From assembly GCA_025354165.1 (NCBI GenBank), contig JANXNI010000052.1, positions 62,001-126,000 of the forward strand: a stretch of DNA of 64,000 nucleotides, in the 5' to 3' direction. Shown piece after piece: positions 1 through 49,827 of the stretch. Below the pieces are notes generated by a model. The model did not search any database, was not told the DNA's origin, and worked only from the letters and a program-made list of their open reading frames with translations. Position numbers and translations under genes: made by a program. The first letter of the stretch is position 1; every line of letters starts with the position of its first letter. The stretch is from Burkholderiales bacterium. GTDB lineage: Bacteria; Pseudomonadota; Gammaproteobacteria; Burkholderiales; Casimicrobiaceae.

Positions 1-109
1 TTTGCCTGAAATCGTTATTGTTGTTGGGCTAGTGCGACGTTTAGGCGATTATCGGTAATTGCACTTTTTTGAATCTAGCCCAACTCGAATGGGGTTTTCA
101 GTAAAAAGC
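1..109. repeat. 112-bp dyad-symmetric element, copy 1 (3 nt cut by the window edge)
   Basis: Seen in sequence: a left arm (1-24, the first 3 nt lie outside the window), 6-mer TGGGCT (25-30), a 46-nt core (31-76) with ATCGGT at core positions 21-26, 6-mer AGCCCA (77-82) and a 27-nt right arm (83-109) ending AAAAAGC. Four other copies in the window have the same spacing to the base. It lies upstream of the fic gene. The family is not one I recognise; the role is unknown. Confidence 0.8.
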
Positions 110-193
110 TGCCTATGTCAGGCGCGTGTACACAGTCTCGCGTTTGTCTATACATGAGACTCCATACGTGTTAACGAATCGCCAATTTCTATA

Positions 194-211
194 CACGTGA
201 AACTTCACGTG
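194..211. promoter_or_regulatory. Perfect palindrome upstream of fic-hsdR
   Basis: CACGTGAA and TTCACGTG are separated by two bases, an 18-bp perfect inverted repeat ending 54 bp before the chosen fic start. The surrounding 110-240 region is AT-richer than the genes and holds further CATACGTG-like half sites. It may be an operator for the Fic/restriction operon, but no regulator gene is visible and the function is inferred from position only. Confidence 0.4.
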
Positions 212-265
212 ATAAGCTAAACGCTGTTTTCTTATCACTTGGCAGCCGATTTTTCGGATCAGACA

Positions 266-1348
266 ATGAACGCGCTGGACATTCCCACGAGCGAGCAGCT
301 TGACGTAAAGCCGGTTTGGCAGGCACTGGCCGAGGCACATCGTCATCTGGCGGAGCTGAAAGGTTTGTGCGAGTCGCTGCCGAACAGCGCGTTGTTGATC
401 GATACGCTTTCGCTTCAAGAAGCCAAAGACAGCTCGGAAATTGAAAACATCATCACCACGCATGATGAGCTGTACGCGTACGAGCCCGAGAGCGCGTCCG
501 CGTCTGGCAGCGCCGCAAAAGAAGTGCAAAACTATGTCGCCGCGCTGCGCGTGGGGTTTGCCGATGTGCAAGAGAGCGGGCTGATTCGGTTGTCCACGAT
601 TTTGGCGGTGCAGGAAGCCGTTGAATTAAACGACGCGGGGTTACGCAAGGTGCCGGGCACGGTGCTGCGCAATCAGAGCACGAACGAGGTGGTGTACGAG
701 CCACCGCAGGATGCGGTGTTGATCGAACAGTTGATGTCGGCGCTGGTGAATTTCATCCATGCCGATCCCGACTTTGACGGGCTTGATCCGCTGCTGCGCA
801 TGGCGATCACGCATCATCAGTTCGAGTCCATTCATCCGTTCTACGACGGTAACGGGCGAACGGGGCGGATTCTCAATTTGCTGATGTTGCAACGCGATGG
901 GTTGCTCAATATGCCTGTGCTGTATTTAAGCCGCTACATCACGCAGACCAAGGCGCAGTATTACCAGCTGCTGCAATCTACGCGCGTCTCGGGCGACTGG
1001 GTGCCGTGGTGTGTGTACGTGCTCAGGGGCGTGGCGGCGACGGCAAAAAGCGAGATCGGGCTGATCAAAAACATGCGCGATTTGATGCAGCAGACGAAGC
1101 ACACACTACGTGACACGCTGCCCAAAATCTATAGTCAGGAGCTGATGAACAATCTGTTCCGCTATCCGTATACCAAGATCGAATTTGTAGAAAGGGAGCT
1201 AGGCGTCTCGCGAATTACAGCCGCTAAATATCTGGACGCACTGACCGAACACGGATTCGTTGAGAAACAAAAAAAGGGGCGCACCAACTTTTATATCAAT
1301 CGACCGTTGTTCAATTTACTGACGCAAATTCGCCTTGACAATGAATGA
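266..1348 (+). CDS. Fic family protein (probable AMP transferase, class II)
   Basis: Fic enzymes usually move AMP from ATP to a hydroxyl side chain of a target protein. The full catalytic motif HPFYDGNGRTGR is present (residues 199-210 counted from the upstream TTG at 239; subtract 9 for the ATG at 266). An N-terminal SSEIEN (65-70 in the same numbering) matches the inhibitory motif [S/T]xxxE[G/N] of self-inhibited class II Fic proteins. The C-terminal 100 residues look like a winged helix (VSRITAAKYLDAL). The stop overlaps the start of hsdR by 8 nt, so the two are probably co-translated. Fic genes are known within type I restriction loci; whether this one controls the restriction enzyme or hits a separate target cannot be told. 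Neither start has a clear ribosome binding site; ATG 266 is preferred to TTG 239. Confidence 0.9.
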   Translation: MNALDIPTSEQLDVKPVWQALAEAHRHLAELKGLCESLPNSALLIDTLSLQEAKDSSEIENIITTHDELYAYEPESASASGSAAKEVQNYVAALRVGFADVQESGLIRLSTILAVQEAVELNDAGLRKVPGTVLRNQSTNEVVYEPPQDAVLIEQLMSALVNFIHADPDFDGLDPLLRMAITHHQFESIHPFYDGNGRTGRILNLLMLQRDGLLNMPVLYLSRYITQTKAQYYQLLQSTRVSGDWVPWCVYVLRGVAATAKSEIGLIKNMRDLMQQTKHTLRDTLPKIYSQELMNNLFRYPYTKIEFVERELGVSRITAAKYLDALTEHGFVEKQKKGRTNFYINRPLFNLLTQIRLDNE

Positions 1349-3728
1349 AGCTGAAACCCGCGCCGAGCACATTGACCTCGCGCTAGCCGCAGCAGGCTGG
1401 GGCGTGGTCGAGGGCAGCCGCATCCGGCGCGAATATCAAATCACTGCGGGGCGCATTGAAGGGCGCGGCAAACGCGGGGTCGCGCTGACGGCGGACTACG
1501 TGCTGGAATATCGCAATGTGAAGCTTGCTGTGGTCGAGGCCAAACCTTGGGATGCGCCGCTGACGGAGGGCGTGGGTCAAGCGAAAAATTACGCTCACAA
1601 ATTGGCGATTCGATTCACGTATTCGACGAACGGTCAGGGCGTTTACGGCATCGACATGGAAACCGGCCAAGAGGGCCAGCAGCCGGGTTTTCCAACGCCA
1701 GACGAGCTCTGGAATTTGACCTTTGCCGAGGCGAACGCGTGGCGTGATCGGTTTGCGGCGGTGCCGTTTCCGGACAAGAGCGGAACGTGGACGATTCGCT
1801 TCTATCAGGAGCTGGCGGTCAATCGCGTCCTTGATGCCATCAGCGAGGGGCGTGATCGCGTGTTGCTGACGTTAGCGACGGGAACGGGCAAGACGTCGAT
1901 TGCGTTTCAGATTGCGTGGAAGCTGTTTCAGGCGCGCTGGAATCTGGCGGATTGGCGCGCGAACGCGGAGCCGTCGCGACGGCCCCGGATTTTGTTTTTG
2001 GCGGATCGCAACGGGTTGGCCAATCAGGCGTTTAACGACTTCACTTCGTTTACTGCGTTCTTTGATGATGCATTGGCGCGGATCACGCCGGAGGACATTC
2101 GCAAGAAAGGCAAAGTACCGAAGAACGCGAGCGTTTTCTTCACCATCTTTCAGACGTTTATGAGTGGGCCGACGGACACATCCTCCGCTCGTGGTGAGCT
2201 TGTCGAACCACCCGTACCACTGGCGCAGTCGTGTTACTTCGGCGAGTATCCGCCAGACTTTTTCGACCTGATCGTGATCGACGAATGTCATCGCGGTGGC
2301 GCGAAAGATGAGAGCAATTGGCGCGGGATTCTTGAGTATTTTTCACCTGCGGTGCAGCTCGGTTTGACGGCGACACCGAAGCGAAAAATTAACGTAGACA
2401 CTTACGCTTATTTCGGCGAACCGGTGTTTACCTATTCGCTGAAGGAAGGCATCAACGACGGGTTCCTGACGCCGTTTCGCGTCAGGCAAATTGCGACGAC
2501 GATTGATGATTACACCTACACGCCGGATGACGCAGTTGTTGAGGGCGAAGTGGTGCCGGGCAAGCGCTACGTGGAGTCGGAATTTAATCGCCTGATCATC
2601 ATCCCGGAGCGCGAGGCGCATCGCGTGAAGACGTTTATGGAGCAGATTGATCAACGCGAGAAAACGCTGGTGTTCTGCGCGACGCAGGCGCACGCGCTGA
2701 TGGTGCGTGACCTGATCAACCAGATGAAGAGCAGCAAAGACCCGAATTACTGCGTGCGCGTCGCGGCGGACGATGGCGCATTGGGCGACGAGAACTTGCG
2801 CGCGTTTCAGGATAATGAAAAAACTATTCCGACGATCTTGACGACTTCACAAATGCTCTCGACGGGCGTCGACGCGCGGAACGTCCGCAACATCGTGCTG
2901 ATGCGCCCAGTGAATTCGATGATCGAGTTCAAGCAGATCATTGGGCGTGGCACGCGGCTGTACGACGGCAAAGATTACTTCACGATTTACGATTTTGTGC
3001 GCGCGCATCATCATTTCAACGACGTGGAATGGGATGGCGAGCCGATTTCGCCAGAGCCCGCCGCTACGCCAATTGCCACGCTTCCGGACGCCACCCTTAT
3101 TCACACAGAGGAAGAAGAGTCCACCACGCCATATCAGGCGCGACCGAAGGTGAAAGTAGAGCTCGCTGACGGCAAGGCACGCGCAATACAGCACATGATG
3201 GCCACGAGCTTCTGGCACCCGGACGGCACGCCGATGTCTGCACAGCAATTCATGGAAATGTTGTTTGGCAAGCTGCCCGAATTTTTCTGTGATGAGGACG
3301 AGTTGAGAGCTATCTGGAGTGCGCCCGAGACACGACGCCAACTGCTCGAAGGTTTGGCGGAGAAGGGTTTCGGGCGCGATCAGTTAGCTGAAATGCAGAA
3401 AATCATCAGCGCTGAAAACAGCGAACTTTTCGATGTGCTCTCATACGTCGCGTTCGCAACGGAACCTGAAAGTCGCGCAGACCGGGCCAGACGTGCTCGA
3501 CTAGCCGTGGCAAAAAATTTCAATGATCGTCAACGGGCGTTCGTAAATTTCGTGCTCGATCAGTACGAGCGTCAGGGCGTTGACGAGCTGGACCTGGGCA
3601 AGTTGTCACCCTTGCTCCGACTTCGATACGGCGACGCGATATCTGAGGCGATTGACGACCTTGGTGACGCGTCAACGGTACGACGCGTGTTTGTTGGGTT
3701 TCAACCGGCACTTTACGAGCGCCGTTAA
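1341..3728 (+). CDS. hsdR: Type I restriction enzyme R subunit (EcoEI-type HsdR)
   Basis: The motor and nuclease subunit of a type I restriction system: it translocates DNA with ATP and cuts it when the partner HsdMS complex finds an unmodified site. From ATG 1341 there is an N-terminal nuclease domain with D52 and ExK (E66, K68), a Walker A ATGTGKTS (about 179-186), DECH box, TATPK motif III, the helicase C domain with IIGRGTRLYDG, and a C-terminal EcoEI_R_C-type domain. The ATG overlaps the fic stop; a TTG two codons upstream (1335) is the alternative. HsdM and HsdS are not in the window and would be expected upstream of position 1. A palindromic repeat is inserted in frame at 2185-2213, between helicase motifs, giving a SSARGELVEP peptide; the reading frame stays open. 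Confidence 0.92.
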   Translation: MNEAETRAEHIDLALAAAGWGVVEGSRIRREYQITAGRIEGRGKRGVALTADYVLEYRNVKLAVVEAKPWDAPLTEGVGQAKNYAHKLAIRFTYSTNGQGVYGIDMETGQEGQQPGFPTPDELWNLTFAEANAWRDRFAAVPFPDKSGTWTIRFYQELAVNRVLDAISEGRDRVLLTLATGTGKTSIAFQIAWKLFQARWNLADWRANAEPSRRPRILFLADRNGLANQAFNDFTSFTAFFDDALARITPEDIRKKGKVPKNASVFFTIFQTFMSGPTDTSSARGELVEPPVPLAQSCYFGEYPPDFFDLIVIDECHRGGAKDESNWRGILEYFSPAVQLGLTATPKRKINVDTYAYFGEPVFTYSLKEGINDGFLTPFRVRQIATTIDDYTYTPDDAVVEGEVVPGKRYVESEFNRLIIIPEREAHRVKTFMEQIDQREKTLVFCATQAHALMVRDLINQMKSSKDPNYCVRVAADDGALGDENLRAFQDNEKTIPTILTTSQMLSTGVDARNVRNIVLMRPVNSMIEFKQIIGRGTRLYDGKDYFTIYDFVRAHHHFNDVEWDGEPISPEPAATPIATLPDATLIHTEEEESTTPYQARPKVKVELADGKARAIQHMMATSFWHPDGTPMSAQQFMEMLFGKLPEFFCDEDELRAIWSAPETRRQLLEGLAEKGFGRDQLAEMQKIISAENSELFDVLSYVAFATEPESRADRARRARLAVAKNFNDRQRAFVNFVLDQYERQGVDELDLGKLSPLLRLRYGDAISEAIDDLGDASTVRRVFVGFQPALYERR
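2185..2213. repeat. Short palindromic repeat inside hsdR
   Basis: The CGTGGTGAGCTTGTCGAACC core matches a dispersed repeat common in many proteobacterial genomes, usually between genes (known from general experience, not searched here). Here it is translated as ARGELVEPP at about residues 283-291 of HsdR. A degenerate second copy lies at 28819-28847 upstream of dnaX. Confidence 0.7.
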
Positions 3729-3877
3729 CTATAGAGATTAAGATCGTAGCCGAGCCGGCCAGAGTGATTGACAAGGCCAAACAAAAATCCCGATACTGCC
3801 GTCCTCGTAAGAATCGTAGGCGATGAAAGAGTGCGCGTCGTCAAGTTGCCTTCAATAGCCTCGGCTATGCTGTGCTT

Positions 3878-25138: not shown

Positions 25139-25149
25139 CGGCAATGAAC

Positions 25150-25172
25150 AAGGGGCCTCGCGGCCCCTTTGT
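25150..25172 (+). terminator. Hairpin terminator between the DUF2059 gene and guaA
   Basis: AAGGGGCC, loop TCGC, GGCCCCTT, then a short T-containing run (TTGTGTTT). The stem is strong but the T-run is weak. It separates guaB-DUF2059 from guaA. Confidence 0.7.
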
Positions 25173-25212
25173 GTTTCAGCCCCAGCTTTTTAACGTACTT
25201 AGCGAGATCACC

Positions 25213-26793: not shown

Positions 26794-26842
26794 CGCATCT
26801 CCGCGATTTTCAGCGCGCTCTTTCGCAGATAGAAGTTGATCA

Positions 26843-26954
26843 GCTTTTTCATGAAACGACCACCACGTAGGGGCCGTGCGCGTTTTATGGCGATTGTCGA
26901 TTTTTACGAAAATGAGGGTGCAGCCCCTGATTAGCGGGCATTTCAGATAAAAGC
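26843..26954. repeat. 112-bp dyad-symmetric element, copy 2
   Basis: Left arm 26843-26869 (GCTTTTTC...), GGGGCC 26870-26875, 46-nt core 26876-26921 with GTCGAT at core positions 21-26, AGCCCC 26922-26927, right arm 26928-26954 (...ATAAAAGC). It fills the guaA-mltF gap between two convergent genes. Confidence 0.85.
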
Positions 26955-27043
26955 TGAAAATAATTGGGAGTCAGAAACGCCCTTGCGACGGCAGACGTTT
27001 TTTTAAAAGTTTTACTAATTTGCGCAGCTCATTCCGCCGTCTT

Positions 27044-28904: not shown

Positions 28905-30590
28905 GTGTCCGCCTCCCTCGCTCTCGCCCGAAAATACCGCCCGCGTAACTTCTCCGAATTGATGGGGCAGGAGCATGTGGTGCGCGCGCTTTCTCATGCG
29001 TTAACCACCGGGCGTCTGCATCAGGCGTATCTGCTGACCGGTACACGCGGAGTCGGCAAAACGACCATCGCCCGCATCCTCGCGAAAACGCTGAATTGCG
29101 AAACGGGCGTCACGCCAACACCCTGCGGTGTTTGTCAGACTTGTCTGGATATTGATGCCGGCCGTTTTCCTGATCTTTTAGAGTTGGATGCGGCGTCGAA
29201 TACCGGCGTCGACAACATGCGCGAAATCATCGACAACGCGCGTTACGCGCCGACCGCTGGGCGCTACAAGGTGTACCTCATCGACGAGGTACACATGCTG
29301 TCGAAGAGCGCATTCAACTCAATGCTGAAGACGCTTGAAGAACCACCCGAGCATGTGAAGTTTGTACTCGCCACGACCGATCCGCAGAAGATTCCGGTGA
29401 CCGTGTTGTCGCGCTGTTTGCAATTTGCGCTGAAGCAATTTCCGCCTGAGCGCGTGGCCGAGCAATTGCATAAAGTATTGACCGCCGAGAACGTGCCGTT
29501 CGATACGCCCGCGCTGCGCTTGATTGGTGAAGCGGCGCAGGGCTCGATGCGCGACGCGCTCTCGATCACCGATCAGGCGATTGCGTTTGGTCATGGCAAA
29601 GTCGAAGAGCAACAGGTTCGCCAGATGCTCGGCAACGTGGATCGCGATTTCGTCTGGCGGGTGCTGGATGCGGTGGTGGCGCGTGATGCAACGGCGCTCG
29701 CGGCTGAGGTTGAGCGATGTTTCGAGCAGGCGCTTGCGGCGGACGATGCCCTTGCGCAACTCGCCCGTGCGCTGCATCGCATTGCGCTCGTTCAGGCGGT
29801 ATCAGCAAGCGTCGACGCCGACGATCCTGACCACGCGCACATCACGCGCATTGCTGCCGCCCTAACCGCCGAAGAAATCCAGCTCTATTATCAAATCGCG
29901 CTGCATGGTCGTGATGATCTGAGGCTTGCGCCCGATGAGCAGACAGCGCTGATGATGACGTTTTTGCGGCTGCTGGCGTTTGCGCCAACGAATGGCAATG
30001 AGCCCGTGCGAGAGGCTGCGCCGAGAGCGGGTTCTACTCCCCTCCCCCCTCGTGGGGGAGGGGTTGGGGGAGAGGGGGCTGGTAGCACCAGAACCACGGT
30101 TGCTGCTACGCCACCATCCCCCTCTCCCCAACCCTCCCCCTCCAAGGCGGAGGGGGCCAAACCGACGCCTGCTACCGGCGCGAACGATCAGGCTGAACCG
30201 CCCACCCAACGCGAATTCGATGGCGACTGGCTACGGCTCGTCACCGCCCTCCCGCTCGCCGCCGTGGCCCGCGAACTGGCCCGTCACAGCACCCTCATTA
30301 GCTGGGACAAAAGCCTGATCAAACTGGCCTTGCCGCAAGACAAGCGTCCGCTCGCCACGCAAAAAGAACGCCTCGCGGGCACGCTGTCGGAATACTTCGG
30401 TCGCCCGCTCAAACTGGAGATCGAACTCACCGACAACGCGGGCGAATCTGTAGCCGTGCGCGACAAGCAGGTCAAGGACGAAAAGCAGACCGCCGCCGAG
30501 ATCGCCTTCATGGCTGATCCTGCCGTGCAGGTGTTGCTCACCGAGGGGCAGGGCCGCATTCGGGCGGGTAGCATTCAGGCCAATGACTAA
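28905..30590 (+). CDS. dnaX: DNA polymerase III subunit gamma/tau with a repeat-derived linker
   Basis: Clamp-loader ATPase that opens the sliding clamp and couples the polymerases. Walker A GTRGVGKT (46-53), zinc-module cysteines C65, C74, C77 and C80, Walker B VYLIDEVHML and the SRC-type arginine finger (LSRCLQF) are clear. GTG 28905 gives the family N-terminus. Residues 379-418 are encoded by a 120-bp GC-rich repeat (30039-30158) that sits in the linker between the collar and the tau C-terminal domain. No A AAA AAG frameshift signal was found, so separate gamma production is not evident. ybaB and recR follow. Confidence 0.95.
   Translation: MSASLALARKYRPRNFSELMGQEHVVRALSHALTTGRLHQAYLLTGTRGVGKTTIARILAKTLNCETGVTPTPCGVCQTCLDIDAGRFPDLLELDAASNTGVDNMREIIDNARYAPTAGRYKVYLIDEVHMLSKSAFNSMLKTLEEPPEHVKFVLATTDPQKIPVTVLSRCLQFALKQFPPERVAEQLHKVLTAENVPFDTPALRLIGEAAQGSMRDALSITDQAIAFGHGKVEEQQVRQMLGNVDRDFVWRVLDAVVARDATALAAEVERCFEQALAADDALAQLARALHRIALVQAVSASVDADDPDHAHITRIAAALTAEEIQLYYQIALHGRDDLRLAPDEQTALMMTFLRLLAFAPTNGNEPVREAAPRAGSTPLPPRGGGVGGEGAGSTRTTVAATPPSPSPQPSPSKAEGAKPTPATGANDQAEPPTQREFDGDWLRLVTALPLAAVARELARHSTLISWDKSLIKLALPQDKRPLATQKERLAGTLSEYFGRPLKLEIELTDNAGESVAVRDKQVKDEKQTAAEIAFMADPAVQVLLTEGQGRIRAGSIQAND
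30039..30158. repeat. 120-bp GC-rich composite repeat inside dnaX
   Basis: Two inverted GC-rich halves (CCCCTCCCCCCTCGTGGGGG at the left, GGCGGAGGGGGCC at the right) flank a centre with CCACGGTTGCTG. The same 120-bp unit, same orientation on the plus strand, occurs at 33656-33775. Length is a multiple of three and the dnaX frame stays open (40 codons, Pro/Gly/Ser-rich). Confidence 0.85.
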
Positions 30591-30985: not shown

Positions 30986-31104
30986 ATGCCGTCATCCTCG
31001 CGAAAGCGGGGATCCAGCTCGTGCACACAGCGCGCAGCGCTCACTTCCCCCGGTTCGTTCCAGCCACCTTTCTGGATTCCCGCCTGCGGCGAGAATGACG
31101 GCAT
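30986..31104. repeat. 119-bp inverted-repeat element upstream of recR
   Basis: Ends ATGCCGTCATCCTCGC and GCGAGAATGACGGCAT are inverted with one mismatch over 16 bp; further in, GGGGATCCAG and CTGGATTCCC continue the inversion. This GTCATTCTCGC...GGATTCC type is a dispersed repeat seen in many proteobacteria. It sits between ybaB and recR. A half copy is at 35803-35829. Confidence 0.8.
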
Positions 31105-31119
31105 GAGGGATAGCGCATC

Positions 31120-31707
31120 GTGACCCCCGTCTCCTTCAAAGTCCTGATCGACGCGCTAAAACAGCTGCCCGGCATCGGCCCGCGTGCAGCCCAACGCATC
31201 GCGTTCGAGCTCGTACAACACAAACGCGACGCCGCGTTAGGCCTCGCGAAAGCGCTCGAAGGCGCGCTCGAAAAACTCGGGCACTGCGAGCGCTGCAACA
31301 CGCTCTCGGAAGAGCCGCTGTGCAGCCTCTGCTCGTCCAAACGACGCGACCCATCGATCCTCTGCGTCATCGAAACGCCGTCCGACCAGATCACGCTTGA
31401 GCAGTCCGGCGCGTTCAGCGGGCTCTACTTCGTACTCATGGGTCGCCTGTCCCCGCTCGACGGCGTCGGCCCCGCGCAAATTCACCTCGAAAAACTCGTC
31501 AACCGCGCCACCGACGGCACCGTCAAAGAAGTCATCCTCGCCACCAACTTCACCAACGAAGGCGAAGTGACCGCGCACGTCATCACCGAACTGCTGGAAC
31601 CGCAAGGCGTGAAGGTTTCGCGGCTCGCGCGGGGGATTCCGATTGGTAGTGAACTGGAATATGTGGATGCGGCTACGGTCGCGCAGGCGGTTCGGGAGAG
31701 GAGGTGA
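31120..31707 (+). CDS. recR: Recombination mediator RecR
   Basis: Works with RecF and RecO to load RecA on gapped DNA. The helix-hairpin-helix ([17 protein letters not shown]), the C4 zinc finger (C56, C59, C68, C71) and the Toprim domain ([18 protein letters not shown]) are present. GTG 31120 starts 15 nt after the repeat element; dnaX-ybaB-recR is a conserved order. Confidence 0.96.
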
Positions 31708-32041: not shown

Positions 32042-32126
32042 GCCGTAGGGCGGAACGCTTGCGGTTCCGCCGAACGCGGTTGCGTGCCACCGATGGCGGA
32101 ACCCCTCCGGGTATCCGCCCTACGGC
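32042..32126. repeat. 85-bp inverted repeat of the GTAGGGCGGA type
   Basis: GCCGTAGGGCGGA (32042-32054) and TCCGCCCTACGGC (32114-32126) are perfect inverted ends; an inner GGTTCCGCC/GGCGGAACC pair extends the structure. A further small hairpin TGCGCAT/ATGCGCG lies just left (32019-32036). Its right end overlaps the left end of a 112-bp element by 2 nt. Confidence 0.8.
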
Positions 32127-32236
32127 TTCTTCGTGTAATCGCGACTGTGTTTGGGCTAAAGGCGAATAACGACTGATATCGATAAATGCCATTTTGCATA
32201 TCTATCCCCCGTTCAACGGTCATTTCAGCGCAAAGC
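32125..32236. repeat. 112-bp dyad-symmetric element, copy 3
   Basis: Left arm 32125-32151, TGGGCT 32152-32157, 46-nt core 32158-32203 with ATCGAT at core positions 21-26, ATCCCC 32204-32209, right arm 32210-32236 ending CGCAAAGC. The right arm overlaps the 3' end of rsmA and supplies its stop codon. Confidence 0.8.
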
Positions 32237-33049
32237 TGTTGACGCCTTCTTTCCAAATACCCAATCCGAAATCGCCATAAATTCCTCGCACGTCAATTCC
32301 TCGGCGCGGGCTTGCGGATTGACGCTGATTTCGGTCCACGCCTCGGGCGTCATCCATGCGCCGAGGCTCTTTCTGAGCATCTTCCTGCGTTGCGTGAAGG
32401 CGGTGGTGACGATTTGTGCGAACAGGGTTTCGTCTTGGGGTTGCAACCGTTCCGTGCCCAATGGCGTGAGCCGCACGATGCTTGAATCGACCGCTGGCAC
32501 CGGTTTGAACGCGGTGGGCGGCACGTCGAAACACTTCTCGATTTTGAAGCGATATTGCAGCATCACCGAGAGCCGTCCGCGCTCGCCGTCGCCCGCAGCG
32601 GCGGCCATGCGATCCACGACTTCTTTTTGCAGCATGAAGGTCAGGTCGCTGATGCGCGATTCAAATTCGCAGAGCCGAAACAGGATCGGCGTGGAGATGT
32701 TGTAGGGCAGGTTGCCCACGACGCGCAGAGGCGAAGGCAGCGTTGCGAAGTCAAATTCCATCGCGTCGGCCTGATGCACGCGCAACTTGCTATCGTCGAA
32801 TTCGTGCGTCAGCCGCGCCACCAGATCGCGGTCGATTTCGATGGCATCGATGCTGCCGTTCAGTCCCATCGCATGGATGAGTTTGCGCGTGATCGCCGCC
32901 TGCCCCGGCCCGATTTCCACGATGTGTTGACCGGGCTGCGGATCAATCGCCTCAACGATGCGATTGATGATCGATTGATCGACGAGGAAGTTTTGACCGA
33001 AGCGCTTGCGGGCGCGGTGCGCTGTGGGGTGTTTCGCGAATTCACTCAT
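32225..33049 (-). CDS. rsmA: 16S rRNA dimethyladenosine transferase RsmA (KsgA)
   Basis: Dimethylates two adjacent adenosines near the 3' end of 16S rRNA during 30S maturation. RKRFGQNFLVDQSIINRIV, the SAM-binding IVEIGPGQAAITRKL and catalytic NLPYNIS are clear. Its start overlaps the stop of the upstream DUF3445 gene (ATGA). The last codons (STALR and stop) are part of a 112-bp repeat element, so the natural C-terminus has been set by the insertion. Confidence 0.95.
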   Translation of the reverse strand: MSEFAKHPTAHRARKRFGQNFLVDQSIINRIVEAIDPQPGQHIVEIGPGQAAITRKLIHAMGLNGSIDAIEIDRDLVARLTHEFDDSKLRVHQADAMEFDFATLPSPLRVVGNLPYNISTPILFRLCEFESRISDLTFMLQKEVVDRMAAAAGDGERGRLSVMLQYRFKIEKCFDVPPTAFKPVPAVDSSIVRLTPLGTERLQPQDETLFAQIVTTAFTQRRKMLRKSLGAWMTPEAWTEISVNPQARAEELTCEEFMAISDWVFGKKASTALR

Positions 33050-34005
33050 TCGAAATGATCCAGTTCAGCGAGAAGTCGCGGCATCGCGTTGGTCATGCCG
33101 CGATAGGCGATGACCTCGGGCGTCATGGAGCGTAGTGATGCCGCGAGCGCCTGGGCGCGCGTGGCGACAACGCCACCCGACCCAACGACCGCCTCAGGGC
33201 GAACGGAGAGGGGTAGGCGCAGAACGTCAACTAATGGACTCATCATCACGCGAATAAAAAACACCGCGCGCTGAAATTGCGGCAATGGCAATGTGGTTTG
33301 CCTCTCAACGCGGAAGAAGAGGTTCGGCAACAACGGCGACATATCGCGCAGCGCCCCCGTCCACCACGCCTGATTTTTCTCCGGGTGTTGATCCAGACTT
33401 GCGCTCGGCACGATGAGCCAGACGTGACGCAGCATCGGCTGCTTCATGAACGCCATCGTCATGATGCTTTGGCCGACGGCGAGGAGTGTTTGATTGTCGG
33501 CAACGGGCGCGTGAATCGCGGCGAAGTCCAACCCCAATTTCTCGCGCGGATCCCAGCGTGAGGGGAAACAGACCGAGAGGTATTCGGTGCGCAGTGCGTC
33601 GGCTTCTTGTTTCAGGATTACGAAGTCTTCTTGCATAGCAAGAGCAACGTCCGATCCCCTCTCCCCTTGCGGGAGAGGGCTAGGGTGAGGGGTATGTTTC
33701 AGCGGGGAGCCACGGTTGCTGGAACTGCCACCTTCCCCCTCACCCCAACCCTCTCCCGCGAGGGGAGAGGGGGCCAAACCCGAGATCGCTGCGAGAGCGT
33801 CTTCATTCGGCGAGCCCACCATCGCACGCTCGCGATGGGTAGCGATCACTTGCCCGCGCTCTCGCCGATAAACCTCAGCTAACTCATCGCGCAACAACCA
33901 AGCAGGCGCATCCGCGTCCAGCTTCTCCAGATTCGGGCGCATGCGAAACGGCGTGGTCACGGGCCAAGGCATCGCGCTTGCGGGCGTTAGCCAATCAGGC
34001 TGCAT
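33046..34005 (-). CDS. DUF3445 protein (heme-dependent oxidative N-demethylase-like) with repeat insert
   Basis: The second half carries the DUF3445 pattern: EDFVILKQEADALRTEYLSV, CFPSRWDPREKLGLDFAAIHAPV and RVERQTTLPLPQ. Family members include a heme-containing dimethylamine demethylase; activity here is only inferred. Residues 77-117 (GLAPSPLAGEGWGEG to QGERG) are encoded by the 120-bp repeat at 33656-33775, which splits the region before EDFVIL but keeps the frame. It may be a tolerated loop or may damage the protein. Start and stop couple it to rsmA downstream and the exonuclease gene upstream. Confidence 0.8.
   Translation of the reverse strand: MQPDWLTPASAMPWPVTTPFRMRPNLEKLDADAPAWLLRDELAEVYRRERGQVIATHRERAMVGSPNEDALAAISGLAPSPLAGEGWGEGEGGSSSNRGSPLKHTPHPSPLPQGERGSDVALAMQEDFVILKQEADALRTEYLSVCFPSRWDPREKLGLDFAAIHAPVADNQTLLAVGQSIMTMAFMKQPMLRHVWLIVPSASLDQHPEKNQAWWTGALRDMSPLLPNLFFRVERQTTLPLPQFQRAVFFIRVMMSPLVDVLRLPLSVRPEAVVGSGGVVATRAQALAASLRSMTPEVIAYRGMTNAMPRLLAELDHFE
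33656..33775. repeat. 120-bp GC-rich composite repeat inside the DUF3445 gene
   Basis: Same 120-bp unit as 30039-30158, same plus-strand orientation, with the shared centre GCCACGGTTGCTG and shared end GAGAGGGGGCCAAAC. The host gene is on the minus strand, so it is read in the opposite direction from the dnaX copy. The two are roughly three-quarters identical by eye. Confidence 0.85.
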
Positions 34006-35776: not shown

Positions 35777-35802
35777 CAAGTGGCTGCCGGTGGTCACATT
35801 GT

Positions 35803-35829
35803 GGATTCCCGCCTGCGGCGAGAATGACG
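35803..35829. repeat. Half copy of the recR-upstream repeat
   Basis: GGATTCCCGCCTGCGGCGAG followed by AATGACG equals the right half of the element at 30986-31104. No left half is present. It lies upstream of cysM. Confidence 0.7.
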
Positions 35830-35899: not shown

Positions 35900-36616
35900 T
35901 TAGGGCTTCTTCGGGGCGTCGTCTTTTTTGGCGGCATCTTTAGCTGGAGCTTCCTTTGCTTTGGCAGCATCCGCTTTTTTCTTGGCAGCTTCGTCTTTTT
36001 TGGCTTTGGCGTCAGCTTCTTTTTTTGCTTTGGCCTCGTCAGCCTTGGCTTTCTTGTCAGCGGCTTTCTTGGCTGCGGCTTCTGATTTGGCTTTTTTGGC
36101 TTCTTCTTTTTTCGCTTTGTCAGCAGCAGCCTTTTCGTCTTTGCTCATTGGCTTGTCAGCAGCTTTTGGCGCGGCAGCAGCAGCAGCAGCAGGTGCAGCG
36201 GCTTTAGGCGCTTCTTTTGTTGCAGCAGCGGCTGGAGCGGCCATCTTGCCCGCATCAGCTTTCGGAGCGGCGGCAGCACCGGCGGCAGCGGCTGGGGCAG
36301 CAGCTTTGCCAGCGTCAGCTTTAGGCGTGTCTTTTTTGGCTTCGGTTTTCCAGTCGATTTTGGTCGGGCCAGAAGTCGAAATCTTGTCTTTCATTCCGAC
36401 GAAGTTTTTGTCGCCAATGCCTTCTACCTTGATCAGGTCTTCATTCGACTTGAATGGGCCATTTTTGGCGCGGTAGTCGATGATCGCTTTGGCGCGGACT
36501 GGACCAACTTCTGGCAGCGCTTCGAGTTCAGACTGGGTTGCGGTGTTGATGTTGACGGCAGCGAATGCCGAGCCAGCCAGCAGGAATGCTGCGAGCAGTG
36601 CGTAGATTTTGTTCAT
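35900..36616 (-). CDS. ComEA-like helix-hairpin-helix protein with a histone-H1-like tail
   Basis: Signal peptide MNKIYALLAAFLLAGSAFA, then one helix-hairpin-helix domain of the ComEA type (VNINTATQSELEALPEVG, IIDYRAKNGPF, IKVEGIGDKNF). ComEA binds incoming DNA in the periplasm during natural transformation. Unlike usual short ComEA homologues (about 100 residues), residues from about 100 on form a tail of roughly 140 residues made of Lys, Ala, Pro, Asp and Glu, with AAPAAAA and KKADAAKAK-type repeats that look like bacterial histone-H1-like proteins. The start at 36616 sets the signal peptide; the frame is open up to 36718. It is bounded by its own terminator. Confidence 0.85.
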   Translation of the reverse strand: MNKIYALLAAFLLAGSAFAAVNINTATQSELEALPEVGPVRAKAIIDYRAKNGPFKSNEDLIKVEGIGDKNFVGMKDKISTSGPTKIDWKTEAKKDTPKADAGKAAAPAAAAGAAAAPKADAGKMAAPAAAATKEAPKAAAPAAAAAAAPKAADKPMSKDEKAAADKAKKEEAKKAKSEAAAKKAADKKAKADEAKAKKEADAKAKKDEAAKKKADAAKAKEAPAKDAAKKDDAPKKP

Positions 36617-36805
36617 AATTTTTGTGTCTCTCCGTGGAAATTCCGGCTTGCCGGTGGGTGACGATTCAAACTGGCTTGTCGCGCTACTTGGGATAACGCG
36701 CCCTGTGCAGCAAAACACCGCCAGTCATGGTGTGCCGCTTAAACGCGCAAATTGTAGCGGGGGTTGACAAATCTGAGCATTCACTCAGTCAGCCTGCGAC
36801 AGCCG

Positions 36806-38070: not shown

Positions 38071-39345
38071 ATGCAGCGCGGGTTTTACACGATCATGGCG
38101 GCGCAGTTTTTCAGCTCGCTCGCCGATAACGCGCTGTTTGTCGCTGCGTATCAATTGCTTCGCTACGACGGCGCGCCGAGCTGGCAGGGCGCGGCCTTGG
38201 TGCCGTTGTTCGCGTTTTTCTATGTCGTACTGGCTCCGTTCGTGGGCGCGTTTGCGGATCGTTTCCCCAAAGGTCGCGTGATGTTCACGTCGAACCTGAT
38301 CAAAGTGGTCGGCTGCCTGCTGCTCTTGTTCGGTACTCATCCGTTGATGGCGTACGCCGTCGTTGGGCTCGGCGCGGCGGCGTATTCGCCCGCGAAGTAC
38401 GGCATCCTCACTGAGCTTTTGCCGCCATCGCAACTGGTCAAGGCTAACGGCTGGATTGAGGGCTTGACCATTATGTCGATCATCATGGGCAACGTGCTGG
38501 GCGGCGTGCTGGTCGGGCCAAAGGTCGGCGACTGGTTGCTTGATCTTGATTTTCCGATGCTGGATTTTGATATTGCCACTGCGCCGGAGGCAGCAATTGC
38601 CTGCATGATCGCGGTGTACGTGGTGGCGGCGGCGTTTAACCTGCGCATTCCGCACACCGGTGTTGCCATGCAACCGATCCCGACCGCGACGCATTTATTG
38701 CCCGATTTCTGGCATTGCAACACGCGTTTGTGGCGCGACAAACTGGGCCAGATTTCGCTCGCGACGACGACGTTGTTTTGGGGCGCGGCCGGCAACCTGA
38801 AAGTGATCGTGATCGCGTGGGCGGCCACTGCGCTGTCGTACAGCGTGACCGAGTCGACCACTTTGGTGGGTGTCGTCGGCATCGGCACGGCGGCGGGAGC
38901 GGTGTATGCGTCGATGCGCGCCTCGCTTGATCGAGCGACCAACGTGATCCCCCTCGGCATCGGCATGGGCGTTGCCGTCGCCTGCATGGTTTTCATTCAC
39001 CATCTGTGGATCGCGGTGCCGTTCCTGATTTTTCTGGGTGCGATTGGCGGTTATCTCGTGGTGCCAATGAACGCGTTGTTGCAACATCGTGGTCACATGT
39101 TGATGGGCGCGGGGCGCTCGATTGCCGTGCAAAACTTCAACGAACAGCTGGCGATCCTGTTGCTAGGCGGTTTCTACACGCTGATGACCAGCCTGGAGCT
39201 GTCGATTTTCGCGTCGGTCGCGACGTTCGGTTTGTTGGTGGCGGCGTTTATGTACCTGATCGGCCGTTGGCACAAATCAAACCTCGTACATCACAAAGCG
39301 GAATTGGACCGGTTGCTCGCGATTGCCAAGAGCGACAAACATTAG
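38071..39345 (+). CDS. lplT: Lysophospholipid transporter LplT
   Basis: Major-facilitator protein with about 12 membrane segments that flips lysophospholipids across the inner membrane. FYTIMAAQFFSSLADNALFV and FADRFPKGRVMFTSNLIKVVG are family signatures. ATG 38071 is 10-15 nt after an ACAGGAGA ribosome binding site. Unlike many relatives it has no acyltransferase fusion. Confidence 0.9.
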   Translation: MQRGFYTIMAAQFFSSLADNALFVAAYQLLRYDGAPSWQGAALVPLFAFFYVVLAPFVGAFADRFPKGRVMFTSNLIKVVGCLLLLFGTHPLMAYAVVGLGAAAYSPAKYGILTELLPPSQLVKANGWIEGLTIMSIIMGNVLGGVLVGPKVGDWLLDLDFPMLDFDIATAPEAAIACMIAVYVVAAAFNLRIPHTGVAMQPIPTATHLLPDFWHCNTRLWRDKLGQISLATTTLFWGAAGNLKVIVIAWAATALSYSVTESTTLVGVVGIGTAAGAVYASMRASLDRATNVIPLGIGMGVAVACMVFIHHLWIAVPFLIFLGAIGGYLVVPMNALLQHRGHMLMGAGRSIAVQNFNEQLAILLLGGFYTLMTSLELSIFASVATFGLLVAAFMYLIGRWHKSNLVHHKAELDRLLAIAKSDKH

Positions 39346-39355: not shown

Positions 39356-39467
39356 GCTTTTGGCTAAAAGCACACCGGCATAGGGGCTAACAGTTAATTA
39401 GGGTGAAAGTCGATATTTGAAGTAATTATCGGGTAGCCCCGGTGCAACGGGCGTTTCAGCGAAAAGC
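39356..39467. repeat. 112-bp dyad-symmetric element, copy 4
   Basis: Left arm 39356-39382 (GCTTTTGGC...), GGGGCT 39383-39388, 46-nt core 39389-39434 with GTCGAT at core positions 21-26, AGCCCC 39435-39440, right arm 39441-39467 (...GCGAAAAGC). It fills the gap between the convergent lplT and ROK kinase genes. Confidence 0.85.
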
Positions 39468-39495: not shown

Positions 39496-40392
39496 TCACC
39501 AAAGCCAAGCCGCACCGCGCACGCCGCCCGAATCGCCATGTACGTTCGGTGAAATTTTGGTCTCTACAAATTCGCTGAAAACGTAGCGCGGCAACAGTTT
39601 CGGCACATTGTCATACAGCCGCGTGATGTTCGACACGCCGCCGCCGAGCACGATGACGTCCGGGTCGATCACGTTGATGATTGTGGCTAAAGCCCGCGCC
39701 AGACGGTCTTCTACGCGCCGCAGATACATCTCCGCGATCTCGTCTCCGGCGTCCGCGCGTTTGACGATTTCGCTGGTGATGACGCCGCTATCGCCGAAAT
39801 GCGCTGCGATGCCGGGGCCTGACAGCCACGTCTCGATGCAGCCCAATTTTCCGCAGTAACAGCGCGTGCCGGGAAACTCATCGGCGGCAGGCCAGGGCAG
39901 CGGATTGTGTCCCCATTCGCCTGCAATCGCGTGCAATCCATTGACGATTTTTCCGTCGACAACGATGCCGCCGCCGACGCCGGTGCCAAGGATCACGCCG
40001 AAGACAATCTGGGCACCTTTTCCCGCACCGTCGACTGCCTCGGACAGCGCAAAACAATTGGCGTCATTGGCTATTCGCACCTCACGCTTGAGCCGCGATT
40101 CGAGCGCCTGTTTGACTGGTTGTCCGTTGAGCATGACCGTGTTCGAGCCCCGCAGCAGCCCGGTCTTCGGCGACAGCGAACCCGGCGTGCCGATGCCGAC
40201 AGACCCTGTCGCATTGAGCGAAACCTCGCAACGCTCGACCAGTCCGGTGATCGCATCGTAGATCGCATCGGCCGTGAGCTTGGGCGTGGGCACTCGCTCA
40301 CGCCAGACAACCGCACCGTTATCGGCCAGCGCCACGGCCTCAATTTTGGTGCCGCCGAGGTCGACACCGATGCGAAATTTTTCTGTGTTCAT
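39496..40392 (-). CDS. ROK-family sugar kinase (fructokinase-like)
   Basis: Phosphorylates a hexose or amino sugar with ATP. The phosphate loop RIGVDLGGTKIEA, GTGVGGGIVVDG, the ROK zinc-site cluster EWGHNPLP...CYCGKLGCIETWLSG are present. The exact sugar cannot be read; fructokinase or N-acetylglucosamine kinase are both possible. ATG 40392 gives the right N-terminus; the longer frame to 40539 adds an Arg-rich stretch that is not real. Confidence 0.88.
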   Translation of the reverse strand: MNTEKFRIGVDLGGTKIEAVALADNGAVVWRERVPTPKLTADAIYDAITGLVERCEVSLNATGSVGIGTPGSLSPKTGLLRGSNTVMLNGQPVKQALESRLKREVRIANDANCFALSEAVDGAGKGAQIVFGVILGTGVGGGIVVDGKIVNGLHAIAGEWGHNPLPWPAADEFPGTRCYCGKLGCIETWLSGPGIAAHFGDSGVITSEIVKRADAGDEIAEMYLRRVEDRLARALATIINVIDPDVIVLGGGVSNITRLYDNVPKLLPRYVFSEFVETKISPNVHGDSGGVRGAAWLW

Positions 40393-40477
40393 GACCGAAA
40401 TGCTACTTGCGGCGGCGGCGGCTAGGGCAGGGCGCGTACTTCCGCAAAGGCGCGCCCGTACTACTTGCGCATTGCGC

Positions 40478-41155
40478 TTACGCCGTGACCGTCGCCCCGG
40501 TCGGCAGCAGACACACCGCGCCCGTCCCCGCCAATCCACAATATCCGTCCGGGTTTTTGGCGAGATATTGCTGGTGATACTCCTCTGCGTAGAAGAAATG
40601 CGGCGTGGCTTCGCCCGGCATCCCGCCCAGAATTTCGGTGGTGATTTTGCCCAGGCCGCGTGCGCTCAGTGCCGCTTGAAACTGCGCTTTGGTGGTTTCA
40701 ACCGCGGCGCGCTGTTCGGGCGTGTAGCAATAGATGGCTGATCGATACTGGCTACCCATGTCGTTCCCCTGACGCATGCCCTGTGTCGGGTCATGCGCTT
40801 CCCAGAACACCTTTAGCAATTGCTCGTAACTTACTTTGCCCGGGTCATACACAACCAGCACCATCTCGGTGTGGCCAGTGCGCCCGGTGCAGGTTTCCTG
40901 ATAGGTCGGGTTCTGCGTGAACCCCCCGGCGTAACCCACGGCCGTGGAATACACACCCGGCTGTTCCCAGAACTCGCGCTCCGCACCCCAGAAGCAGCCC
41001 ATTGCGAACTGTGCGAGCTGCAAGCCCTCGGGGAACGGCGCGACGATGTCGTTGCCGTTAGCGAAGTGTTTGCGCGATACCGTGATCGGCTCAGTACGTC
41101 CCGGCAGCGCTTCGGACGCGCTCACCATCGATGTTGATTTTCCGAAAAATCCCAT
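40478..41155 (-). CDS. msrA: Peptide methionine sulfoxide reductase MsrA
   Basis: Reduces methionine-S-sulfoxide in proteins. The catalytic C54 is in [36 protein letters not shown] and [11 protein letters not shown] follow as in the family. Extra Cys near the C-terminus (GYCGLAG, GAVCLLP) would serve recycling. Its length is 225. Confidence 0.95.
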
Positions 41156-44774: not shown

Positions 44775-44776
44775 GC

Positions 44777-45553: not shown

Positions 45554-45554
45554 G

Positions 45555-46046: not shown

Positions 46047-46118
46047 GGCAATCGTCGCAAAAGCAGTCAATCCGCAAGTGTAAGCGGTGGGCGCGCCTCA
46101 GGGCGTTTGGGCCCAGCG

Positions 46119-46826
46119 TCACGGTCGGCGCTTGTCCGCAACAATCTGCCCGTCGGCCAGCGTGACCTGACGATCGCAGGTTGACGCCAGATGCGCGTCG
46201 TGGGTGACGATCAGGAACGAGGTGCCAAAGTCCTGATTAAATTTGCGCAGCATGACAAAAATATCGGCCGCCGTTTTCGTGTCGAGATTGCCCGTGGGCT
46301 CGTCCGCCAGCACCAGCGCCGGTTTCATCGACAATGCACGGGCGATGGCGACGCGCTGCTGCATGCCACCTGAGAGCTCAGACGGCTTCTTGTTTTCAGC
46401 GCTCGCGAGCCCGACCGACGCCAGCAAAGCCCGGGCGTGAGCGCGCGTTTCGTCGGTGCTGCCCTGACCGTTGACTAGCTGCGGCATCAGGATGTTTTCG
46501 AGTGCACTGAAGGCCGGCAACAGGTGATGAAACTGGAACACAAAGCCGAGACTCGCCGCGCGCAGTCGCGTCAGGTGATCATCGTCGCTGTAACTGACCG
46601 GATGGCCGGCAATTTCGACCGTGCCAGCAGTGGGCGCTTCGAGCAATCCGATGATATTGAGCAGCGTGCTTTTGCCGGAACCCGAGGGCCCGATCAGCGC
46701 GGTGAATTCGCCGTTGGCCACGGTCAAATTGATGCCGTGCAGAATTTCTGCCTCGACCGGTTTTCCGATGTTGTACGACTTGCGAATGCCCGCGAGCCGC
46801 AACACATTTCCGGAGGCGGTCGTCAT
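46119..46826 (-). CDS. LolD/MacB-type ABC transporter ATPase
   Basis: Walker [13 protein letters not shown] signature [14 protein letters not shown], Walker [13 protein letters not shown] and switch His in VTHDAHLA. The sequence is of the LolD type. Its start overlaps the stop of the permease gene (ATGA). With the adaptor and permease it forms a three-part export pump or lipoprotein-type releaser. Confidence 0.92.
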
Positions 46827-48049: not shown

Positions 48050-48073
48050 CAACAGTGTCCGTAGCGCTTCGCA

Positions 48074-49345
48074 TTACATCCCCGGCATCGGCACGCCCGC
48101 AGCGTTCGGGCGTGCCGACGAAATATCGGGTGCAGCGACCGTGTGCACGCGCTGTCCCGCGCGAATGCGATCATCGAGTACCACTTGCGCGCCTTCGCTC
48201 AATCCGGACACAATTTCAATTCGCTGCAACGAGCGCACGCCGACGCGCACGTCCTGTTCTTTCGCGACGCCGTCGGCCACGGTCAGCACAAACAAGCGCT
48301 CGCCCGCCTCGCGCAATGCGCTTGCTGGAATGGTCAACACATTGGTTTTCTTCGCTGCCACGACTTCCACTGAAACCGTCATATCGTCGCGCAAAATCGG
48401 CGGCGGTTTGGACACGCGCAGCCGCGCCTCGACGGTGCCACGCGTCACGTCCACGGACGGTGCGAGATAAATCAATTCTGCTTCAAATTTGTCGTCGGGA
48501 AATGCGTCGGCCGAGGCCACAGCGCGCATGCCTTCACGCAACAGGCTCAGGTTCTTTTCGTCAATCTGGGCGATTAGCCGCGTCTCGCCGGTCGTTGCTA
48601 ACGTCAGCAATTTGCGGCCCGGCTGGGCCACGTCACCCACCTCTACCGTGCGGGCGATCACGCGACCATCGGACGGCGCGGTGATACTGGTTTGCTCAAG
48701 CTTCGCTTTGACAATTTGTACGGCTGCCTGCGCCTCGATGAGGCGCGCCTGAATCGTCTGCGCTTCGGCACCGCCTTTCGTATTGGCGGTCGCCTGCGAG
48801 CTGGCTTGGGCGAATGCGGCGCGAGCGCTGGCGACGGCGCGCTCAGCGTCCTGAAGTTTGGCGTCGCCGAGAAAACCCTGCGCATGCAACTTGCGCGTCC
48901 GCTCAAGCTCCGCAATCGCAAAATCCAGCGTCGAGCGACTCTGCGCCATGCCTTGCGTTGCCACCGGGCCGGAGAGTTCGAACTGTGACTTCAGACGTGC
49001 CTGAGCGGTCGCCAGCGCCGCTTGCGCCTGCTGCAACTGCGCGCGCAGATCGTCGTCATCCAGTGCCACCAGAATTTGCCCCAGCTTGTCGACGTCGCCC
49101 TCGCGCACCAGCACTTTGTCCACGCGCGCCGTCAGCGTGCTCGCCAGATCAGTCCGCGCGACGCTCGCCACGCGCGACGAAAACACCAGCGAATGCTGAA
49201 TCGGGCCAGACGTGACGATGATCACCTCGGCCGCTTTGCCACGCCATGAGTAAACGCCCGCAGCGATTGCCGCCAGGACGAGCGCCAGAATGAACCAGAT
49301 CCACGACTTTGGGCGACCCGTGCTCGCCGATTTCCACCACGTCAT
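48074..49345 (-). CDS. MacA/HlyD-type periplasmic adaptor
   Basis: An N-terminal anchor (WIWFILALVLAAIAAGVYS), then split biotinyl-lipoyl halves around a long coiled-coil hairpin rich in Ala/Gln (LQQAQAALATAQARLKSQ), then beta-barrel and membrane-proximal domains. It should bridge the inner-membrane pump to an outer-membrane channel. No TolC-type gene is in the window. ATG 49345 is used; GTG 49354 is the alternative. Confidence 0.9.
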   Translation of the reverse strand: MTWWKSASTGRPKSWIWFILALVLAAIAAGVYSWRGKAAEVIIVTSGPIQHSLVFSSRVASVARTDLASTLTARVDKVLVREGDVDKLGQILVALDDDDLRAQLQQAQAALATAQARLKSQFELSGPVATQGMAQSRSTLDFAIAELERTRKLHAQGFLGDAKLQDAERAVASARAAFAQASSQATANTKGGAEAQTIQARLIEAQAAVQIVKAKLEQTSITAPSDGRVIARTVEVGDVAQPGRKLLTLATTGETRLIAQIDEKNLSLLREGMRAVASADAFPDDKFEAELIYLAPSVDVTRGTVEARLRVSKPPPILRDDMTVSVEVVAAKKTNVLTIPASALREAGERLFVLTVADGVAKEQDVRVGVRSLQRIEIVSGLSEGAQVVLDDRIRAGQRVHTVAAPDISSARPNAAGVPMPGM

Positions 49346-49392
49346 AAAGGACACATGCTTCCATTGAACCGACGCAGCTTAACGCCGCCGCG

Positions 49393-49671
49393 CTAACTGT
49401 CGTTTGATCTAACGCCAAACAAATCGTCAAAAGCGTCTGCAACGCCCGATTTCGCGACCTTGCCCGTGCGCTTGCCGGAGAAACTTTCCTCGATCTTGTC
49501 TTCGAAAAAACTGTTTGGCGACGGCGACGAGATCAGCTGGCGATAAAGCTCGGGCGAAACGGCCTTGTATTCGTAAACATCCCCGTTCACAAACTCAATC
49601 TCCATCAAGCGCAAACCCTCGTCATAGCCCGCTGCGCGAAGCTTGCTGGATTTGAGCGGTTTGCGATTCAT
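49393..49671 (-). CDS. KTSC domain protein
   Basis: 92 residues. SSKLRAAGYDEGLRLMEIEF, GDVYEYKAVSPELYRQLI and SPNSFFEDKI follow the KTSC domain (often fused to, or near, RNA or DNA processing proteins). The function is unknown. It is monocistronic with a 112-bp element upstream. Confidence 0.8.
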   Translation of the reverse strand: MNRKPLKSSKLRAAGYDEGLRLMEIEFVNGDVYEYKAVSPELYRQLISSPSPNSFFEDKIEESFSGKRTGKVAKSGVADAFDDLFGVRSNDS

Positions 49672-49715
49672 GGGGAGATTATGCAGGGGTTTGACGCGAG
49701 ACGGTTAGGTAATTG

Positions 49716-49827
49716 GCTTTTTGCTGAAATGACCATTGCATTGGGGCTGAAGCGGAAAAAGCGATAAAGTCGATAAACGAGGTTTTGGCGATATAGCCCC
49801 TGAGCAGCCGTCATTCCGTAAAAAAGC
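49716..49827. repeat. 112-bp dyad-symmetric element, copy 5
   Basis: Left arm 49716-49742, GGGGCT 49743-49748, 46-nt core 49749-49794 with GTCGAT at core positions 21-26, AGCCCC 49795-49800, right arm 49801-49827 (...TAAAAAAGC). It occupies most of the gap between the KTSC gene and the HAD gene; the rest of 49672-49956 shows no gene. Confidence 0.85.

Follow-up and report, generated by a model that had tools for sequence, protein, structure and literature searches.

A 118-bp palindromic element in several hundred copies per genome of a Burkholderiales genus: predicted double-stranded DNA sites for a symmetric protein complex

We examined a 64,000-nt window (contig JANXNI010000052.1 of assembly GCA_025354165.1, positions 62,001 to 126,000, forward strand) from a Burkholderiales bacterium of the family Casimicrobiaceae, in which a first-pass annotation had noted a dyad-symmetric element of 112 bp in five copies. 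The observation of a dispersed element was borne out and proved to be understated, as the five copies are part of a family of approximately 350 per genome. We predict that the copies are double-stranded DNA sites for a symmetric multi-subunit complex, with chromosome architecture as the most likely role, a reading that we hold to have about an even chance of being correct. The architectural role is favored because of the spacing of the sites, their placement between transcription units, and their absence from a foreign island. The putative complex would hold a DNA stretch of about 118 bp, probably in a bent or wrapped form. Its contacts would be with the central palindrome (of the GTCGAC type), with one dyad per arm at a distance of about 34 bp and with the ends (AGCTTTT) at about 54 bp.

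The pattern GGGGCT-N21-TCGA-N21-AGCCCC matched the host genome of the window (4,717,919 bp in 97 contigs, here G000) 253 times with up to two mismatches, compared to 0 matches for the reversed pattern; with up to three mismatches the counts were 355 and 21, respectively. Chance origin of the pattern is excluded. A symmetrised weight matrix, trained partly on the same copies that it found, identified 29 copies in one contig (C72, 361,871 bp) and four in the window with scores of 40.5 to 123.2; no scores fell between 15 and 40 in these regions, and the reversed sequence yielded none of 15 or higher. These 33 copies in 425,871 bp scale to about 365 per genome. In the host, the consensus spans about 118 bp and is palindromic almost throughout, with TCGA at its center and conserved blocks at fixed offsets. 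Counting outward from the center, A or T is found at 4-5 and 12-15 bp, followed by GGGGCT at 24-29, TGCA at 32-35, C at 39, TGAAA at 43-47, GCTTTT at 51-56 and [A/T]CA to 59, and conservation reaches about 60 bp on either side of TCGA. The bases between the blocks are near random, with several columns carrying less than 0.1 bit (e.g., 37, 40, and 48 or 47). The 112-bp length first assigned to the element describes its core layout (27-6-46-6-27, for arm, 6-mer, core, 6-mer and arm, verified in all five window copies), but the conserved block extends to about 118 bp, with [A/T]CA before and its mirror after. Likewise, the spacing is constant in the five window copies but not family-wide, as a few copies are displaced by 1 bp at one arm. 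The suggestion of a protein that measures length fits the fixed block offsets, the near-free bases between them and the symmetry of the site. A/T-rich positions at approximately 4.5, 13, 23.5, 32, 44 and 53 bp from the center are common to four genomes of the genus (G000, G005, G006 and G007), whose A/T profiles correlate at 0.53-0.85 despite different base motifs.

The symmetry of the element is not accompanied by base-pair covariation. Among 24 host copies, half-to-half pairing was 0.552 within a copy versus 0.554 between different copies. In the four genomes, within- and between-copy pairing was 0.516 and 0.507 (G000), 0.455 and 0.439 (G005), 0.462 and 0.472 (G006), and 0.351 and 0.348 (G007), with z scores for the excess of 0.98, 1.1, -0.8 and 0.3, respectively. 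No compensatory changes between the inverted halves were seen in the 24 copies or in the four genomes, and the first-pass proposal of a folded RNA did not survive this check. Palindromic symmetry with no compensatory change would be expected of double-stranded DNA that is read by a symmetric protein. A second dyad is present in each arm, about 34 bp away from the center, and is clear in two of the sequence dialects described below. In a local scan of about 100 positions per genome, this dyad was 0.52 paired in G006 (next best position, 0.39) and 0.59 in the GGTCGTT dialect (next, 0.38). It was slight in two genomes, namely G007, with 0.39 versus 0.33 for the next best position (33.5), and G005, with 0.35 versus 0.34 for the next distinct one. 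Within-copy pairing excess near -34 was absent or slight (z -0.2 to 2.0), and 16 copies of the GGTCGTT dialect showed no covariation at the arm dyad (0.587 within and 0.590 between copies). The copies are also well diverged from each other: no near-identical pairs were found among 33, 27, 21 and 35 copies of G000, G005, G006 and G007, the best pair in each genome being 54-68% identical and the median 35-51%.

Of 17 genomes of a single Burkholderiales genus, 16 contained sites, in sequence dialects that differ between species. The GGGGCT dialect is used by G000 and G016, and G005 (27 copies in 400 kb) has its arm block mostly 1 bp further out. A GGTCGTT/AACGACC dialect gave 140, 80 and 76 matches in G013, G012 and G019, respectively, with 0 in the control, and the arms of G006 (21 copies in 200 kb) read GCCTTAT-AAATAAGG. 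The end block (CTTT) and the center are best kept across dialects, and both are weak in G007. In the proposed mechanism, the DNA-reading part of the protein would change and the sites would follow, giving rise to the dialects. Because the dialects differ, no single motif serves as a test for all 17 genomes; four of them (G010, G011, G014 and G018) were covered by partial scans, and G011 was counted once in all comparisons. G008 is represented by one site, and G009 by one site plus 9 pattern matches versus 1 in the control. G015 and G020 were searched with the G000 and G005 models. In G020 (2.5 Mb), the G005 model located about 13 distinct places and the G000 model 8, with all first-look candidates scored, and a 77-kb sample contained no site; in G015 (2.6 Mb), neither model detected a site (100 of 100 candidates scored in one case, 150 of 265 in the other), nor was one found in a 60-kb sample. 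These are the two members of the genus with small genomes, and a comparison of the genes that they have lost may point to the binding protein. An order-wide search with the G000 model alone found matches in 6 of 399 genomes, all from this genus (6 of the 7 of its genomes that were drawn), and none in the 392 other Burkholderiales genomes, using this one dialect, strict filters and 8 scored candidates per listed genome; a distant dialect could be missed by such a search. The GGGGCT pattern was at control level in the six other genera of the family.

The sites are mostly extragenic. By the calls of a simple, purpose-made gene finder, 0 of 29 site centers in G000, 0 of 27 in G005 and 1 of 21 in G006 lie in predicted coding sequence. 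Considering gaps of at least 100 bp, convergent gaps account for 31 of 112 sites but for 64 of 400 gaps, an enrichment (p 0.005), and the divergent ones show a depletion (19 of 112 versus 102 of 400, p 0.04). Within tandem gaps, they are closer to the end of the upstream gene in G000, G005 and G006 (28 of 42), which is not the case in G007 (9 of 20). Spacing was compared to random choice among intergenic gaps, either uniform or weighted by length, and it was more even than chance under both nulls in three of the four genomes; in the remaining one, this held under a single null. The coefficient of variation was 0.64 in G000 (versus 0.92 or 0.88 expected; P 0.011 and 0.027), 0.47 in G006 (versus 0.88 or 0.77; P 0.002 and 0.005) and 0.65 in G007 (versus 0.89 or 0.82; P 0.017 under the uniform null). 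In G005 it was 0.42 (versus 0.87 or 0.85; 0 of 4000 draws each) with one large hole left out; with the hole kept, spacing was not even (P 0.93, in the first spacing test, in which null sites were allowed to share a gap). This hole is a conjugative-looking stretch of 105 kb (C1, about 110-215 kb) that contains no site. Pfam matches were obtained for 8 of 9 large proteins scanned there, including TraC, TraG/D, a Tn3 transposase, a topoisomerase and PglZ, and its G+C is the same as that of the rest. The conjugative-looking element also carries PglZ, helicase, methylase and HerA genes as a set, possibly a defense system. Among 150 scored matches in G005, the best 98 sites are found all round the closed chromosome. 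Such a network would anchor or insulate the chromosome at spaced points that separate transcription units.

Some sites are retained in place across species. The site beside lplT (copy 4 of the window) is present in all five genomes scanned there (G000, G005, G007, G012 and G018), in different dialects, and the site at the 3' end of mltF (copy 2) was found in 10 of 15 genomes. No site was detected at the mltF 3' end in G005, G011, G012, G014 and G018 within the 0.4-1.8 kb scanned; in G011, mltF and guaA are 57 bp apart with no site between them, which may represent a loss. The place of copy 5 is also occupied in G005. In comparisons of conserved gene neighbors, a site was present in both species in 10 cases, in one in 9 and in neither in 83 (undirected counts), the ten shared cases covering five distinct junctions. 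An earlier and weaker test based on gene 3' ends gave 7 with a site in both, 9 and 11 with a single site and 52 with neither (p 0.03). In four orthologous site pairs, the contact columns are 56-86% identical and the low-information columns 20-35%, close to random, so it appears that some sites stay in place and retain mainly the positions that a reader would contact, written in the dialect of the species. The several hundred sites would constitute a chromosome-wide network that is partly inherited in place. Sites also occur near the gyrA 3' end in both G000 (C79:25313) and G007 (C15:466475), possibly another conserved place. At about 31 kb of G012:C1, a local rearrangement joins genes that are apart in G000, and no site was detected at the break.

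A more local function was considered, in which a site and its bound protein act on transcription as a two-way roadblock, a terminator, an insulator or the operator of a broad regulator. We think this rather unlikely. The mostly extragenic placement, the enrichment in convergent and depletion in divergent gaps, and the proximity of tandem sites to the upstream gene's end in three genomes are all in its favor, and terminator-like hairpins are somewhat rarer at convergent gene ends beside a site (9 of 48 versus 20 of 60, p 0.13). However, hairpins are commoner beside a site at tandem gene ends (17 of 41 versus 39 of 162, p 0.03), where the rate in shuffled sequence is also higher (0.17 versus 0.06); operators should favor promoter regions, yet divergent gaps are depleted; and even spacing over several kb is unexpected for local transcription signals. 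The sites might instead serve as labels of self DNA in the manner of DNA uptake sequences, with uptake or recombination as possible uses, and the species dialects and the absence from the conjugative-looking island would suit such a role. DNA uptake sequences are about 10-12 bp in length and more numerous, compared to a 118-bp compound palindrome here, which counts against this idea. Convergent gaps, moreover, show no excess of gene-order breaks where a site is present (31 of 62, versus 25 of 49 where it is absent); we consider it very unlikely that the sites have such a role. Excerpts of two reports describe dialects of uptake sequences in the Neisseriaceae and the use of these to find conjugative elements (PMC3630211, PMC7371117); as far as these excerpts go, the resemblance lies in genome-wide, lineage-specific dialects. 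A recombination site was likewise set aside, though with some residual probability: breaks looked enriched at sites (63 of 122 with a site versus 185 of 574 without), and the excess is gone in the convergent gaps counted above but stays in tandem gaps (21 of 49 versus 60 of 222, p 0.04). As for a structured RNA at transcript 3' ends, two of the four full window copies fold well on both strands relative to shuffles (z -2.8 to -5.4) and a third does so on one strand (z -3.9; other strand, -1.45). Good folds of some copies can, however, come from the palindrome itself, the fourth copy folds no better than shuffles, covariation is absent, and no Rfam family at gathering thresholds lies over any window copy. 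The probability of an RNA element is in our view next to negligible. A phage origin was rejected when an exact 18-base pattern of the G000 dialect, the one dialect tried, had no match in viral contigs.

The first-pass annotation had also likened the copies to repetitive extragenic palindromes (REP) or miniature inverted-repeat transposable elements (MITEs) moved by a partner transposase, and a version of this proposal is an old mobile family, of REP/REPIN or MITE type, now under purifying selection. The size, palindromy, copy number and extragenic location resemble those of REPINs and ERIC, sites are gained and lost between species, and at least one Y1 transposase domain was found in 15 of 17 genomes of the genus. 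However, G020 has sites without any Y1 match, and the single match in G000 is interrupted by an in-frame stop. In addition, there are no near-identical copies among those compared, no compensatory changes, no decayed copies (scores of 15-40) in the G000 regions scanned, some places are kept while the motif changes between dialects, and the 105-kb island is empty. We therefore set the mobile proposal aside as decidedly unlikely. According to excerpts of PMC3116915, REPINs are characterized by invariant 16-mers, frequent compensatory changes and a neighboring RAYT. REPINs and the related BIMEs with RAYT share with our sites the hundreds of extragenic palindromes, symmetric ends and lineage-specific sequences; on the features covered by those excerpts, our sites differ in having no covariation and no near-identical copies and in being present where no Y1 domain was found (G020). 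No duplicated flanks were noticed by eye in 24 copies. Copies of ERIC, NEMIS, YPAL and RPE are alike along their whole length, whereas only the fixed-offset blocks are kept here and whole-element similarity was not seen. Those families are about 105-170 bp, palindromic or stem-loop forming and intergenic, like our sites, and are described in excerpts of PMC2229807 as MITE-like, with terminal repeats and mostly with target duplications.

Strong sites for DNA gyrase (or topoisomerase IV) would likewise be symmetric about a 4-bp center, wrapped, and about 120-130 bp in length. Excerpts of PMC6379681 describe a symmetric E. coli gyrase motif of 130 bp in which a periodic flank lies on either side of a central part, and our sites share with this motif and with the strong Mu and pSC101 sites the symmetry about 4 bp (TCGA, with conservation to about 60 bp on each side), the length and A/T-rich positions at intervals. 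The sites also favor gene ends, and the A preferred at -2 in excerpts of PMC12324340 (offset -4 here) is present at 64% in G000. The same excerpts report that cleavage specificity varies between species, with G at -4 and C at +8 preferred around the cleavage site, the G consistently across all enzymes; for this G, the corresponding offset here, -6, has G at 10% in G000, 20-26% in G005, G006 and G007, and 6% in the GGTCGTT dialect. Nor is the flank period 10-11 bp, the best fit being at 7.25-7.5 bp and R2 at 10.75 bp only 0.13-0.18. The Mu cut site ranks 1407 of 36,594 at its exact center by the mean A/T profile (best nearby, 480) and 618-3585 (nearby, 217-1361) with single-genome profiles, and GyrA is of the usual make, with six C-terminal repeats in a frame of 864 aa. 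Gyrase was given up after these failures of flank period, Mu site and G at -4, and we now regard it as highly improbable. A histone-wrapped site was also rejected, as 0 of 64 genomes of the family carry a histone-fold gene (PF00808); 3 of 14 control genomes were positive, all of them archaea. The matS, Noc and parS families of chromosome-organizing sites are also dispersed, palindromic and read by a host protein, but their sites are 13-16 bp in length and far fewer. The first-pass statement that no named family has this layout holds as far as Rfam (at gathering thresholds) and literature searches go, as neither yielded a described family of this kind. Our sites would belong to the general class of dispersed protein-binding sites on chromosomes, and in their length, compound symmetry and dialects they match none of the families tested.

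Several observations weigh against reading the copies as sites for an architectural protein complex. The binding protein was not found, and its binding to the sites is what we infer. Since no site was found in G015 and only about 13 in G020, members of the genus can do without the network. Nor do the A/T-rich positions follow a clean helical period, as the best fit is 9.5-10 bp for half-elements (R2 0.20-0.35) and the shorter period given above for the flanks alone. The arm dyad is weak in the host (0.37, the third best position) and in G005, and within-copy pairing shows some excess at -56.5 in G007 (z 4.4) and at -9 in G000 (z 2.4). In G007, the motif is weak (35 copies in 200 kb), 11 of 35 site centers lie inside predicted coding sequence, and even spacing reaches only P 0.067 under the length-weighted null. 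The best 98 sites of G005 are biased weakly toward coordinate 1 (30, 19, 18, 19 and 12 by fifths; Kolmogorov-Smirnov p 0.04, chi-square p 0.07), which from the sizes of the genes there we take to be the origin. Finally, there is turnover: the site of copy 3 is missing in G005, G007 and G018, and that of copy 5 in G007, G012 and G018.

In the window, all five copies lie where the first-pass annotation had placed them, and three of the four full copies are between convergent genes; it had put three between convergent genes or at gene ends. Copy 1 (1-109) is cut by the window edge; its three missing bases, read from the contig, are GCT, and the full copy starts at contig base 61998. Copy 2 (26843-26954; conserved block about 26840-26957) lies between the convergent genes guaA (25144-26793, + strand) and mltF (27044-28474, - strand). 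The MltF proteins of eight close relatives, all metagenome-assembled genomes (labeled Burkholderiales in 4 cases, Betaproteobacteria in 3 and Pseudomonadota in 1), are 68-85% identical. Copy 3 (32125-32236) is located between recR (31120-31707, + strand) and rsmA/ksgA (32225-33049, - strand), overlapping the 3' end of the latter by 12 bp, and copy 4 (39356-39467) between the convergent genes lplT (38071-39345, + strand) and a ROK-family sugar kinase gene (39496-40539, - strand). The remaining full copy, copy 5 (49716-49827), is between tandem genes. The dyad center is TCGA in four copies and TCGG in copy 1, and the 6-mers are GGGGCT, TGGGCT or GGGGCC on the left and AGCCCC, AGCCCA or ATCCCC on the right. 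Copy 5 illustrates the anatomy. Its left end block, GCTTTT (49716-49721), corresponds to a genome consensus of the ends of [A/T]CAGCTTTT and its mirror. Within the left arm (49728-49749) is a local dyad of its own, at a distance of about 34 bp from the center, clear in other dialects and weak in G000, and the left GGGGCT block (49743-49748) is dialect-specific together with the arm before it. TCGA at 49770-49773 (genome consensus AAAGTCGACTTT) is the exact center of symmetry, followed by the right arm (49794-49815), a mirror of the left one, with its AGCCCC block (49795-49800), and by the right end block, AAAAGC (49822-49827).

Other repeats were noted in the window. A second, unrelated dispersed repeat of 54 nt, rich in CCCTCTCCCC, is present at 30056-30163 and 33656-33780 (85% alike), with an inverted copy adjoining each of these two places. 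A 31-nt repeat, TTCTGGATTCCCGCCTGCGGCGAGAATGACG, occurs at 31070-31100 and 35799-35829 (97% alike), both apparently intergenic. On the - strand, segments repeated in three copies extend across two adjacent open reading frames (ORFs) at 53493-55086, which therefore contain related domains in tandem, and an ORF at 35900-36718 (- strand) is rich in short internal repeats and is probably a low-complexity coding stretch.

The families of sites that are known to organize chromosomes in bacteria have short sites, and we know of no large sequence-specific wrapping complex of this sort in bacteria. If our reading is correct, a 118-bp palindrome every 5-12 kb or so implies such a complex. In its fullest form, which we put forward tentatively and consider somewhat doubtful, the site would be the address of a sequence-specified chromatin particle: the putative complex would wrap the 118-bp palindrome, and protein and sites would have switched together through at least three dialects within the genus, with some sites staying put. 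The dialects would then represent a rare natural experiment, in which a change of the reader appears to have been matched at hundreds of sites in one genome, some of them still at their old places, and their comparison would allow the evolution of protein-DNA specificity to be followed directly. The site itself would provide a concrete handle for fishing out the protein.

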